From Chrysaora quinquecirrha (lineage: Eukaryota; Cnidaria; Scyphozoa; Semaeostomeae; Pelagiidae): DNA of 64,000 bases. Below the pieces are notes generated by a model, which ran no database searches, had not been told where the DNA came from, and saw only the letters and a program-made list of their open reading frames with translations. Below are positions 31,901-62,905 of this stretch, one piece after another. The stretch covers positions 190,453 through 254,452 of the forward strand of contig JACTAT010000247.1 of assembly GCA_014526335.1 (NCBI GenBank), read 5' to 3'. Each line of letters starts with the position of its first letter. Position 1 is the stretch's first letter. The position numbers and the translations under genes are program-made.

Positions 31901-34900
31901 GCAGGAAAATATTCGTACCTCAGCTTCTTGTACGCGAACGTCATGCTTCGGTCCGAATATTTTCCAGCATTGACCTCGTAATCATTCAATAACCACATAG
32001 TATCATTCCTGTATAAGTGCCTGGCATTTTTCAAGAATTGTCTTTAAAGGCCCATGCTTTTTAACGTAATAACGAGTCGTAAAAATATTATTGCAATGGG
32101 TAATCAACTATGCACTTCTTTAGATTAATCAGAAATCATGGTTTATCCAATAACATGTTCTTGCTACAGGATTCCCACCTTTGAAATGTCTCGCTTGCAT
32201 TGGAGGAAGACCAATGAAAGAGCAAATTGAATCCATCAAACGGTAAAGTTACAAAAAGCTTTTCCTTTAAGTTTTATGTTAATAGAATTTTCAACCATCA
32301 ACTGCTACTTAAAATGTACCAATTGTATTTTAGCATTGGTTACCTAAATTTTTATCGAAGTTGAAAACCAATTCTGTATAAATAAGAACATGGAACCACT
32401 AATAAAACAAAGCATTGCATGAGCAGTTTTTTTGCGAAAAATTTTTGGTTTCTAAAAACCAGTTTCTTAATATGTGACTCATATCCCTCCGTCCTACCCT
32501 TTGTCTGGTAGTATATTTGTTCCTCTTTTGAAGAAGGAAATTTTTTCTTCTAGGGGTGTCCACATCGTTATAGCAACTCCTGGACGACTTATGCATTTAC
32601 TTGATAACAAAGCTATAAATCTTGATGTGTGCAGGTGGGTGTTCTTTTGCCATAATTTAACTCAAATTGTCCACGTTCTCAAACAGATCAAATCTTATAT
32701 TCTTATAGTTTCTTTTTCAGTAATTTTCTAATACTCTTTGTAGACTGCAAGAATAATGATTAAATGCCTTGATCAGAATAATTTATAGTCTTAGAAACTC
32801 GTCGCTTGACATAGTCAATTACGCTTTTGCTGAGAATGACAACTGCATGTTAACTCTTGATTCTTTGTCTGCAATGTTTTTCATTTCTATTTTTATTCAT
32901 TTTTACGTAACTTCTCGTGTAATTTTTTCACTGTCTCAATTTATTTTTATAAGATATAGTATTTCATAATTAATAATGACTGGGAATAGTTACCTAGCAG
33001 TAATTTGCTGTGACTTTGTTCATCTTAATCCACTGCTTTTCATTCGTATCAAGATATTGCTGCCTTGATGAAGCTGATCGTATGATTGACATGGGCTTTG
33101 AAGATGATGTCAGGACCATCTTTTCTTACTTTAAGGTACTATCTTGCTTCTTTTTGTTGATAGTGTTTATTTAAATTATTACCTTTATATGATCTATGAT
33201 TTTCCTCCGTTTTTTTTATTCATCTATCACTTTCTGCTTTTTCGTCTTCTTCTGCCAGTTTTTCGGCAGCAGCTTTACCCCTTTTATTTTTTCCTCCTCT
33301 TGATACAAATATTTTTGATTTTCCCCTTTTTCTTTCACATAGGCTTAAAAATTGCGATGAATAGCGGAGTCATTTTCGGGCATACTTAAAAGCTTTTTTC
33401 GTCTGATACTCCTCAGAGTATGAACGTCAGAAACAGACCGAAACAATAGACTAAGGTGGAAGTATACCCAGATAAATTTATACCCAAATGCACTATTTAG
33501 AATGAACGAAAAGCTGAATTGGCATTGTGTTTTAAACACCAATCAAATGGTCGGATACAGCGGGAAGTCCAATAGAATTTTTTGAGGGGTCCAAGTGAGA
33601 AAACGAACTCTTTCTGTCTACACAGAACCGGCCTTTTGGTTTTGATGTAGACAGATTCCAAAACAAAACATAGGCTTAAATGTCTCGGTCATATTTATTT
33701 CGATTGCTTTTATTTGTTCTTCTCTTCTTTTTTACTTTTTTTCAATTTCTTTTCACTTTTATATTTTATATTTCTTATTTGCGAACGCACTGAAATATGC
33801 GTTCCAAAAAAATTAGAAAATAGAGAAAGAAAATTTAGAAAGGATTTTATGGTTAGAACGTAAACCATCATACGTCAGTGAATATTCAATACATTATCTT
33901 TAAATTGTCATGTATTTATTTTTTTATAATAACCACTCTTGATTTATTGATATGTGATAAATGTTTGTAGCATTTTTTGGCTCTTTGTCATATTTTTCAT
34001 GTGCAATTTTTTATTCCAGTCGCAAAGACAGACGCTTTTCTTCAGTGCTACAATGCCCAAGAAGATACAAAATTTTGCAAAAAGTGCATTAGTTAAACCA
34101 AGTATGTAAGAAAATTGCAGCAGTTTCTTTCTTGATTTTTTTTGCCCCAGGCACGCGAGTATCACCTTGCTTGAACATTGGTTTTCAAGTCTCCGATTTA
34201 GACTTATTACCATAGTCCACTAACATCCATAGCCGAGATCGCTCAAACTGGTACTCATAGTATTACAGCAACTGTCTGAGACTGGCCGTATCAAATTTTC
34301 ATGCGCCTTGAGATGAGTCTGACTCATTGCACTGTCACAGCAAGATACAACCTTGTTCGGCAGCCATTTTAGCCTAAATCCCAAAAAGCATTTAAACGAA
34401 TGTCAAAGAGGCTCTGTTGGTAAGTGCTTTCTGCAAAACAAATTGAAAGTTAAATTTTAAGACAAAGAAACGTTGTTTTTCAAAGCATTTTGGACCTGAT
34501 AGATTTAGGCCATGACAGCAACTTATAATTCATGTAATAAGTCGTTCTCCTGGTACTCACATTTCATGTTTCTTAAATAATAGTTAATTTTATTAATTTT
34601 ATAGTTAATTTTATAGCATAGAAAACCCGGTGAAATTGCACTTGCACTTCCAGAAATGTCTCCGCTGTTTCTAGCAACTCGTACTTGTAGGAGAAGCATC
34701 ACTCGAAACTTTGTACAAGAAACCAACTTTTTCCATGAAATGATAAACCCATTTTATGTTAACAAGCAGTTAATAACAACATTTACAACCTATAACTAAC
34801 TACTATAACTATAATTTGTTGTTCTGTTTCTTTATCATGATATCATGGTCTCTAATACTATAGTTACTTTGCTGATTATTTTCCAAATTGCAGCAAAGAT

Positions 34901-37900
34901 ATTAAAGAGATTTAAACTAACAGTTTAAACTTATTTTTAACTTAATTTTAACTAAATACGTCAATAAGTGCTTTGAAAAGAAAAAAAGGAAGATACTAAT
35001 ATTACCAACAGTTCCTTTGCATATTGCAAGAGACCCAAAACAATAAAACACTTATTGAGAGTCAATTCACTGTGTCTTTTTTTATACAGTTACTGTGAAT
35101 GTGGGACGAGCTGGCGCTGCTAGTCTTGATGTAATTCAAGTAAGTTTTCTGTAATTCAATTTCTGGCATGTTATCTAAATATTCTAAAGTGCGTTGCTGA
35201 AAGAAAAGTACACCAATAGATTTTCAAGTTCCGACCTTTTCATCCTTAATCTCAAAATGCCAAAGTACCGAATGTCGTCTCATTCTCCTATTTGCCAATA
35301 TGCCAATATTACCGATTAGCTAGCATATACTCATATTGCAGCAAAAAGCTTCAAAGATACCATCATAACCTTTATATGAATAAAGTTCAAAAGAATATCG
35401 AGGCTAATAACTGCTTGAATATAAGATTAAGCTGAGAATAAAAGCAAGGCTCAATTTTCAAATGGGGTTTTTTTTTGTTTACATTTCACTTTATGCTGCT
35501 TATTTGTAACAAAATTAATATTCATATCTAATTATTTTCATGACTAAAAGTAAAGTTGAGTTCTTTCAACGTCCTGTCGAAGGGAAACTGTCGCTTTTAT
35601 GTTATATTTATGCTTATGCTTGACAGGTTCTATTCCTAGGCTAGAAAAAAGTTAAGTTCTGTGGGCTAAAACATTGTGGAAAACCTGCGATGGAGAACCA
35701 GTCTCCTTCTTGACGTGGTCAATTCTCCAAACAACCAGTCTTCCTTATCAGTATCCTCTCGCTGTCATTGATATTTTCTTAACCGCGCAAATCTCAGTCT
35801 TGTTTTCAAATGATTCATTGCATCCGAGTATTGTTCATCCCTTGTTTTTGCTGATAGTATCGAATGTAAGCTAACATAATAAAAAATGGGTGTCAAAGCT
35901 TGTCACCCATTGGAACACTTTTTTATTACTGTATGTCAAAAAGAATAATACAAATCCATCTCAATAATGAAAATATGAATATTCTTCTATGAAATATGCG
36001 CCTTAAAATCTAAGATTAATAGCAGGATTTGATGTTTTTTTTAACGCACCTTTCATAAAAAATTTAGTTGTGGAGACCTCTATGCCTCAAAAATAAATAA
36101 ATTGTGTTTTATGCCTTTTCCTTACAGGAAGTCGAGTATGTCAAGCAAGAAGCAAAAATTGTTTACTTATTGGAGTGCTTGCAGAAAACTGCACCACCGG
36201 TAGGTTACTTTGCATTTTCTATGGTGGAGCCGCAATCACTAGCATAGATTTATCTAGGAAGTGGAATAAAGGACCCCATACAATTGGTAAACAATACTCA
36301 TAGTGGTCTCTGAAGGGCAATGGTTAGGGTGCATGGTTCATAACCAAAATTTTCTTGGTTCGGGCCAGGGTCTTTCCACTTATGATTCTAGAGAAAACAA
36401 GCGTAGGCAAGTTGTTAACACAAATCTGCTTTATGAGCGCCGTGTGCAGCTGCACCCTGCTATACCCTATGCACATCCAGACCAGGGGTAGATTGTAGAG
36501 TCGAACAGTAGCCCTAGACTAGTCGTAAACTATAAAACGGTAACCTTCACCTTGTTTTTGCACCTGGTCTATTATTGAGTCTAGTATATTTCCACTGAAA
36601 TAAGCTTAATCTTAGAAGAGAACGCCTTTGTACCTAATTTGGTTTTTCGTGCATATATTATTCGTTTAGCAGCACTTGCGATTTATGTTAAAAGCCCTTT
36701 ATTATATTAAATGAAAAATGAAATACAGCGAGTGAGAAAATCGAAAATATGTGTTGATGTGTCAGAATGGAAGGATGATGCATAATTGCTCTTAAAATTT
36801 CAAGAATCACGTTTATCAGTTTAGTTACAGATAAAAATAACTTTCTACCTCCTTAATATATTTGCTGTTAAATAATAAGATTAAGGTGTCAAATCAAAAG
36901 CAGATTTGATTATTTAGATCGAATATATGAATTGCTCTAAGCACTTCTGCCTCTGTTTTCTTTTATATGAAATAGCCCTCGTGATCTGATTTAGATGAAT
37001 CTTCTGAAGTGTTTGCTATCTTCGTGTGTGGACTGGAGAAAGTCAGGGATGAAATGATATTTTCGCAAGCCAAAACACATGGGTTTTATTTGAATTGTCG
37101 ACAATGGGGCTCGACTAGAATACATTTGTGCAACATGACAAACCTCGCATAAAATGCTTGAACATGTTTAAGTGCAAATGGAACACATTTTGAGCGACAT
37201 TTGTCATTCGACACGGAATAAATTAGTGAAACATAATCTATTTTAGATGTCGCGTGATATTGCTGTATAGTTTATCCAGGCCTTTATATTACTCTTAAAT
37301 CAAATGATAAAACATAAATTCCCTTCTTCATTCTTTGTTGCAGTTGAAAAGATTAATATAAGAGAAAACGGAGGGAAAAATGAAAATGGAGGAAAGTTTA
37401 GAATATAATTAATTTGTTGCTATTTTTCAGGTTCTGATATTTGCGCAAAGGAAATCAGATGTTGATGACATTCATGAATATTTGTTGCTGAAATGTGTTG
37501 AAGCGGTTGCAATCCATGGCAATATGGGTAAACTTTTTCCTCCACTCAATCATTTTTCTTAGTAGTGCAGAGGGGAGATCTTATGTTACCTTACCAACAA
37601 CGGTACCATTTTTCGTTGTCTGATTCAATGTTTCCTTGAATTGCTGACAGATGGAAAAAGAAAAATTTTTTTCTTTTTTCATCGTATAAGACACGATAAT
37701 CACCGCTTGTTATCAAATGCGTTTGATACTTGTCCTGGCGAAGTTTTCGGGAGAAACCAATCTCCCATAATCCGGTAATGAAGAACGTCGCTCTTCTCTT
37801 TTCCAGTCGCTCGGGTCGGATCGAATAGGCATATGTGAAACACTATCTGAGCCTGCGAGGAATCTCTATTTCAGGCGCTAAATTTGTAGAATTTGTGATA

Positions 37901-62415: not shown

Positions 62416-62905
62416 AACACATTAAATAGCTGAATATAACAAGTTGAAGACGAGTCAGAGTCAGGGTCATTCGACAGCCGTAATTTTCATTATCGGTCTC
62501 AAAGATGCAAATGTTTAAACAAACGACCCCTTACCACACCCGTTAATTGTTTTTCACCCCCCTCCCGCAAATCGAATAGATGATGGTCAGTCCTAAACAT
62601 ACATTATGATGATTATGATTATGACGTTGCTAATGATGAAGATGATGGTGGGACGCTAGGGAAGCTTGTGGTTAAAGTAACCCCGTTCCCTCGAGTCTCT
62701 CGAACGCGTTGTCAAGAATGTTTGCAATGCTTGTTATTGGCAAAGGTTGATTGACTTATGTGGCAATATGCCAATCGTTTTGAAGTAAACAACAATGAGT
62801 CATTGCATGAATTGTTTCGATCACATTGTAGCGGCGTTTAGAGTACCAATTGTTTACGATTCCATTCTCACGTAACTTGCTTGCATGTCAAATTACAGGT
62901 ATAGA

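Follow-up and report, generated by a model that had tools for sequence, protein, structure and literature searches.

In heterotype false duplication, both alleles of a heterozygous locus are placed next to each other on the same scaffold (Ko et al. 2022, PMC9516828). In that paper, a gap usually lies between the false copies, and the reported cases include copies linked by sequence that has no support and stems from incorrect gap filling. The locus described below resembles these cases in having adjacent partial copies of one gene, but differs from them in that i) no N lies between the copies on its contig (C243), the N-run being located on the allelic scaffold (C247), and ii) the second copy itself lacks blocks of sequence, two exons included. 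It also resembles a partial tandem gene duplication, with a head-to-tail unit and breaks within an intron and in intergenic DNA, but departs from one in that the outer flank of copy 2 differs from the flank of copy 1 on C247 and in that the orphan exons show no amino-acid change. We consider it likely that the last 14.3 kb of C243 are a chain of other-haplotype fragments, i.e. a heterotype false duplication at the contig end.

DDX41 and its repeated 3' half

The window, i.e. the whole stretch of 64,000 nucleotides analysed, is the right end of C243, a contig of 254,452 bases in a 328-Mb assembly. DDX41, a gene linked to innate immunity and splicing, is present in it as a medusozoan-type gene spanning 20739–42273. 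The initial annotation had named the gene correctly: the stitched product (with copy 1) aligns with positions 74–621 of human DDX41 (8c6j_CD, E 2.9e-273), is 92% identical to P0001 and groups with P0001 at 100/99 support in a tree of 18 proteins. With copy 1, the similarity covers the helicase core and the C-terminal zinc knuckle, whereas the frame with copy 2 lacks 74 codons. The main features are as follows.

20739–32641, + strand: DDX41 5' half, 12 recognisable coding exons (20739–20837 to 32555–32641), from tblastn with human DDX41 and P0001
32705–49704, + strand: copy 1 of the repeated unit, with the complete DDX41 3' half and 7.4 kb downstream (self-BLAST, global alignment)
33054–42273, + strand: nine DDX41 3' exons of copy 1, at about 33054–33135, 34020–34101, 35090–35139, 36128–36199, 37431–37527, 38520–38669, 39274–39345, 41102–41212 and 42137–42273, with an open frame to the stop
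38520–39345, + strand: two exons absent from copy 2 (38520–38669 and 39274–39345; 74 codons with helicase motifs V and VI, in frame), from tblastn and global alignment
49705–49714, + strand: right flank belonging to copy 1, GAATACAATA, with the same bases in C247 (comparison with C247)
49712–62905, + strand: copy 2 of the repeated unit, minus 12 blocks of at least 100 bp (3.9 kb) kept in copy 1 (self-BLAST, global alignment)
50056–57554, + strand: seven DDX41 exons of copy 2, at about 50056–50137, 51036–51117, 52079–52128, 53119–53190, 54443–54539, 56556–56666 and 57418–57554, from tblastn with P0001

In both copies, the first three exon borders were moved 1–3 bases by eye from splice signals. 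Self-BLAST of the window bore out the annotated pair of adjacent copies in the same orientation (about 17.0 and 13.2 kb), with direct repeats of 17,000 and 13,194 bp. Copy 2 is, as had been stated, the shorter one, but not merely shorter, since it also lacks two coding exons of copy 1. Global alignment gave 94.56% identity over 12,839 columns, far beyond chance, with 22 gaps of at least 20 bp; the 699 substitutions (5.4%) form a mosaic, with an index of dispersion of 8.6 in 51 windows of 250. The window contains no N, and thus none between the copies.

The left break, previously assigned to DDX41 intron 13, falls by tblastn in the 12th intron if counting starts at the first coding exon that can be recognised; with a short first exon that escaped recognition, it would be the 13th. 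The right break had been placed at a shared motif, and CAGGTATAGA is indeed common to both right ends (49695–49704 and 62896–62905), but copy 1's own flank extends ten bases beyond it, to 49714, because C247 has the same bases, and the switch to copy 2 lies between 49714 and 49715. These ten bases had also been considered as junction filler left as an end-joining scar. A 13-base match hinted at a templated insert, but random filler equalled it in 273 of 5,000 trials, and the filler is copy 1's own flank, since C247 carries it.

In searches of the assembly, the block with the two lost exons was found once, its repeat apart; the stretch 28000–29300 in the DDX41 5' half was whole only in C243, its simple-repeat part apart; and matches to 57000–58000 of copy 2 were limited to the two C243 copies. 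Every protein match of at least 74% identity lay on C243, with six of the seven shared exons found twice and six other exons once. These searches revealed neither an intact version of copy 2 elsewhere nor a second complete copy of the tested DDX41 stretches.

The allele-like scaffold C247

The left third of the window (103–23648) is collinear with C247:196280–218706 in ten aligned stretches, with 529 mismatches in 16,850 bases (3.1%; 82–99% identity by stretch), a value that applies to the aligned part of about 23,500 bases and excludes window parts with no match. A MAFFT alignment of this left arm with C247 forced non-homologous stretches together, and its figure of 13% was discarded. Across the DDX41 position, C247 reads N (218707–241570); the length of this run, 22,864 bases, is close to that of the single-copy path on C243 (24,545). 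The scaffold then resumes as window 48194–49714, the right end of copy 1, and is identical to it over the final 722 bases. Where C247 reads GAATACAATA followed directly by CGCTGTCG, entering a different onward flank, the window instead jumps to copy 2.

Close to the N-run, 13 sites in 816 bp and two length changes distinguish copy 1 from C247, and of 19 differences towards the left edge of the run, 12 crowd in the last 122 bp. The dense differences at the left edge, together with the N-runs that C389, the sequence matched by the contig end (see below), also has, speak for the N being assembly gaps.

The tail beyond copy 2

Copy 2 is followed by three pieces.

62906–63419, + strand: tail piece matching C389:134958–135472, with no mismatch and one 1-base gap
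63420–63554, + strand: repeat copy (135 bp) bridging two C389 pieces and replacing 1,374 bp of C389 (135473–136846); 81% identity to the repeat at C389:136122–136265
63555–64000, + strand: tail piece identical to C389:136847–137292 (446/446); C243 ends at 64000

Many other copies of the bridging repeat were found at 70–84% identity, and a few short ones at higher values. The onward flanks of the two copies differ: that of copy 1 on C247 begins with GAATACAATACGCTG, while copy 2 continues with CATTACTAACC, which is C389:134958. C389 and C247 align with one another over the position at which copy 2 joins. One part of C247 has two matches in C389, so that the order of C389 itself may be unsafe.

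These flanks bear on the possibility that one chromosome really underwent a recent partial tandem duplication, in which a copy from the other allele was placed behind copy 1. Copy 2, which lacks a promoter and 5' exons, would then have started losing blocks, the two exons included. The gap-free contig would agree with this, as would the position of copy 2 as the outlier beside copy 1 and C247; exon loss fits an orphan copy, all nine 3' exons being present only in copy 1, and an allelic origin would explain why the exon differences are silent only. However, the second copy of a tandem should continue into the original right flank, the one seen after copy 1 on C247, and copy 2 enters C389 sequence instead; other joins in the same 1.1-kb tail are contradicted by both C389 and C247; and the large losses show the same one-sidedness downstream of DDX41 as within it, though neither copy need be constrained there. 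A recent tandem is thus unlikely.

Exons and missing blocks of copy 2

The seven exons common to both copies differ by 4 silent and no amino-acid changes in 620 bp, compared with 12.7–29.3 differences expected from the flanks, and only 36 of 7,728 circular shifts gave equally low values. For nonsynonymous changes, 4.8–11.0 were expected and none was found (P 0.008 to 2e-5, depending on flank width). Joined, the seven exons of copy 2 remain in frame, and the splice-site bases are unchanged. The exon differences therefore do not follow the neutral decay of orphan coding exons, although the loss of two exons does; being silent only, they disfavour copy 2 as a decayed pseudogene.

Identical tracts between the copies cross exon borders, e.g. 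37388–37634 around one exon, bar a 1-base gap. Such tracts and the divergence mosaic could reflect a tandem duplication of old date whose copies, some exons included, have stayed similar through gene conversion, but the last DDX41 exon has 3 differences in 132 sites against about 10% in its flanks, copy 2 has C389 sequence at its outer end rather than the flank of copy 1, and the length of the C247 N-run fits one copy. We regard gene conversion as very improbable. Least probable of all is a real tandem with copy 2 as an alternative 3' cassette, in which the 5' exons could splice to either half. The products would be full DDX41 or an in-frame form without motifs V and VI, the latter possibly a dominant-negative helicase. 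The unchanged splice-site bases and the silent-only differences in all seven exons fit such a cassette. No transcript of the copy-2 form was recognised among the matches listed (120 of 6,450).

All 12 gaps of at least 100 bp represent sequence absent from copy 2 (4/4 within DDX41 and 8/8 downstream of it). Four of these blocks are interpretable as lost by copy 2, two containing exons and two truncating a repeat of which the window has a longer version elsewhere; the polarity of the other eight cannot be assigned. Mechanical breakpoint fits were unreliable at blocks 1, 7 and 12. A repeat lies between the two lost exons.

38934–39141, no strand assigned: high-copy palindromic repeat, MITE-like, with many genome copies in both orientations

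The copy 2 repeat at 55270–55434, where the exons are missing, is related to this palindrome (81% identity; 85% in the alignment bin). In copy 2, the block of the first lost exon is located between a high-copy repeat ending at 55269 and the high-copy palindrome, and that of the second starts at the other side of the palindrome. One copy-2 loss carries a 20-bp tandem duplication (59080–59117). Transposon insertions in copy 1 were rejected as an explanation of the gaps, since direct repeats at the edges reach no more than 2 bp in the 13 that were examined.

Other features in the window

Both copies contain an exon with a YHYH domain.

45154–45606, – strand: YHYH-domain exon of copy 1 (Pfam PF14240, 53.5 bits); the motif reads YHYP
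59822–60286, – strand: YHYH-domain exon of copy 2 (Pfam PF14240, 58.8 bits)

Over 139 codons these exons show 14 differences in nonsynonymous codons and 9 synonymous ones. As a clock the exon was not decisive, with derived residues on both sides by eye against homologues. At E 0.01, Pfam matched 3 of 20 ORFs, one of them under the curated cut-off; an Rfam scan found no family at the gathering threshold, and ARAGORN with the bacterial code found no gene. A guess of dynein for 63213–63524 was dropped, with no PDB match at E 1 and no Pfam match.

Origin of the second copy

Under a heterotype false duplication, the animal would have two diverged alleles of a single-copy DDX41. C243 would follow one allele through copy 1 to 49714 and then continue as a chain of fragments from the other (copy 2), in which stretches are missing and some joins fall at high-copy repeats, and whose last two fragments would belong on C389; C247, the matching scaffold of the other haplotype, would read N where its DDX41 should be. 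Three points of this are inferred: no reads would support the join between 49714 and 49715, the N-run would be a gap in the assembly, and copy 2 would be the allele that C247 lacks. The copies differ as alleles of one genome do (a 5.4% mosaic, 3.1% between C243 and C247, and silent-only exon changes), and the mosaic is unlike a single duplication date.

Several points stand against this. N can also stand for withheld sequence; if the N-run does so and is not a gap, a DDX41 allele could lie there and copy 2 would be a third copy. Likewise, if the 13 differences between copy 1 and C247 are true variants, those two would be the alleles and copy 2 a third sequence, but the 2 transitions to 11 transversions among them, vs 268 to 261 in the left arm, argue against it. 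In addition, no N separates the copies, a stretch of 722 identical bases also occurs between alleles whose divergence is a mosaic, and the 20-bp tandem duplication could be a real repair scar.

The initial annotation had left the choice between a genuine partial duplication and a joining of two haplotypes by the assembler. The latter is favoured by the two allele-like scaffolds and the N of C247 across DDX41, and further by a copy 2 that shows no amino-acid change yet is missing blocks, two of them at high-copy repeats, and whose outer end enters C389 sequence. Copy 2 most likely comes from the other parental chromosome, as a damaged piece that the assembly glued on, and the arrangement is therefore probably an assembly fault and not a new gene arrangement. 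If it were not corrected, annotation of this contig end would yield a partial DDX41 duplication that has lost exons. The locus usefully illustrates how a probable false duplication with no gap can be recognised from the assembly alone, through an N-run on the allelic scaffold, the copy counts, tail pieces that are out of place, exon differences that are all silent and losses confined to one side.

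Gene content of the repeated segment

Self-comparison delimits two direct repeats, each carrying the 3' half of DDX41 and its downstream flank, and tblastn places the gene itself on the forward strand:

20739-42273, + strand: DDX41 gene
32705-49704: copy 1 of the direct repeat
49712-62905: copy 2, adjacent to copy 1
43575-43676, 45154-45606 and 47447-47560, - strand: pieces of a YHYH gene, with equivalents in copy 2

The motif CAGGTATAGA is common to both copies and lies at the right break, where the initial annotation had placed it. Directly ahead of the junction, 49098-49654 is a repeat with dozens of genome copies at about 70-79%, and a repeat of about 375 bp occurs at 11759-12135, 47864-48235 and, in a shorter copy-2 instance, 61842-62045, with further copies on C247, the scaffold matching the left third of the window. 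In the left part, a 51-bp-period tandem array in 9332-10748 (22.7 copies, several open frames) is contained in a larger direct repeat (9332-9997/10096-10748, 90% identical), and a weak FGF match at 12886-13197 (- strand) scores 19 bits, under the Pfam cut-off of 24.

The stitched DDX41 product matches human DDX41 in 8c6j and shares 92% identity with the protein P0001. A tree of 18 proteins groups it with P0001-P0005 on a branch beside Hydra, with support of 99/97 for the nine, so that the host appears to be medusozoan. The nine 3' exons of copy 1 form one open frame. Copy 2 holds 7 of them, with splice-site bases unchanged, and lacks exons 38520-38669 and 39274-39345 (74 codons, the region of helicase motifs V and VI); since exon phases match, it remains in frame. 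Among the papers listed for DDX41 gene duplication and paralogs, no title concerns a duplication of DDX41.

Each copy also contains a YHYH-domain exon on the strand opposite to DDX41. C-terminal-like YHYH pieces flank this exon on both sides, the motif reads YHYP in copy 1, and no N-terminal part of the gene was recognised.

Divergence between the copies

Copies 1 and 2 are 94.56% identical over 12,839 aligned columns. Identity is 98.6% in the first 500-base bin and 99.6% in the last, most middle bins being about 85-95% identical with patches of 97-99%; differences per 250 aligned bases average 13.7, with an index of dispersion of 8.6 (51 windows). The coding sequence has 4 differences in 620 aligned bases, all silent, against 12.7-29.3 expected from the flanking divergence, depending on flank width. 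If copy 2 alone were unconstrained, 4.8-11.0 amino-acid changes would be expected, and none was observed (P 0.008 to 2e-5); when the difference track was shifted circularly, 36 of 7,728 placements were as low as observed. The protein-level pattern of copy 2 is not that of a decaying orphan. Identical tracts extending past exon borders account for part of it, so the silent-only pattern supports long constraint without proving it.

At each of the 12 gaps measuring 100 bp or more, copy 2 is the copy without the sequence (4/4 within DDX41, 8/8 beyond). Small indels show the same bias (41 to 22), whereas the 20-99 bp class is biased the opposite way (3 to 7). Four of the 12 large gaps are readable as copy-2 losses, the other 8 being without polarity. 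Differences reach 11% within 25 columns of large gaps versus 4% beyond 250 columns, a pattern that old deletions in diverged regions would explain, as would low-quality sequence at joins. It would be odd for an allele to keep every residue and lose two exons, and odd too for an orphan to lose blocks but no residue; an incompletely assembled allele is the less odd reading of copy 2.

Comparison with the allele-like scaffold C247

The assembly comprises 328 Mb in 740 contigs. The window corresponds to C243:190453-254452, and this contig ends where the window ends. C247:196280-218706 is collinear with 103-23648 of the window (529 mismatches in 16,850 aligned bases, ten stretches); C247 is then N up to 241570, where sequence resumes as 48194-49714. 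Since N can also stand for withheld sequence, we infer that this N-run is an assembly gap. Its left edge is rich in differences (12 of 19 within the last 122 bp), a feature expected of true gaps. N-runs are present too on C389, the scaffold matching the window's tail. The last 722 bases of the resumed match are those of copy 1, including ten bases beyond the end of the copy 1/copy 2 homology, and C247 then continues into sequence absent from the window at that point. In a three-way comparison of copy 1, copy 2 and C247, copy 2 is the outlier. Closer to the N-run there are 13 substitutions, 2 transitions and 11 transversions where the left arm has a ratio of 268:261, and we take many of them for edge errors; were they real variants, copy 2 would be a third sequence. 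Inverted copies of the right flank of the DDX41 unit (C247:243090-244300) lie upstream at C247:153946-155126(-) and C243:166609-167791(-), 89-90% identical.

Copy counts in the assembly cover readable sequence and are blind within N. So counted, 28000-29300 (simple repeat apart) and the block with the two lost exons (its palindrome apart) are single, and 57000-58000 of copy 2 was found in the two C243 copies only. A protein search listed 57 matches, with 69 of 207 candidates scored. Those listed with at least 74% identity are all on C243, where six of the seven shared exons appear twice and six other exons once; the best off C243, among the matches listed, has 67%. One 5' half, two 3' halves, an unreadable locus for the second haplotype and both haplotypes kept next door fit copy 2 as fragments of the missing allele. 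Further DEAD-box-like matches occur as near-equal pairs on one contig (G000 C113:5590484/5796213, C486:77994/229615, C190:7570710/7504849), some inverted; these may be further cases of retained haplotypes, or genuine duplicates.

Tail of the contig and origin of copy 2

Beyond copy 2, 62906-63419 corresponds to C389:134958-135472 with no mismatch and one 1-base gap, and 63555-64000 is identical to C389:136847-137292. The 135 bases between them are a high-copy repeat, 81% identical to the repeat at that place in C389, and replace 1,374 bases of this scaffold. The exon loss in copy 2 resembles this arrangement: the end of a high-copy repeat at 55269 directly abuts a high-copy palindrome. Upstream of 134958, C389 is unlike copy 2 and collinear with C247:264900-276468 (80-91% in longer stretches), a single alignment stretch spanning the 134958 point at 78%. 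C247 at about 261-276 kb has two matches on C389, at 127-137 kb (+) and, inverted, at 101-110 kb (-), with 78-91% and 79-96% identity by stretch, respectively, so either C389 stretch could be the true allele. Whichever it is, neither C389 nor C247 supports the join 62905|62906 or the 135-bp bridge.

The main criteria for false duplication in PMC9516828 are read depth, pairs and k-mers. Most false copies described there are separated by a gap, and some are joined by unsupported sequence; the present case, with no N between the copies, would belong with the latter. Read from the assembly sequence, the last 14.3 kb of C243 are probably a chain of other-haplotype pieces, that is, a heterotype false duplication.
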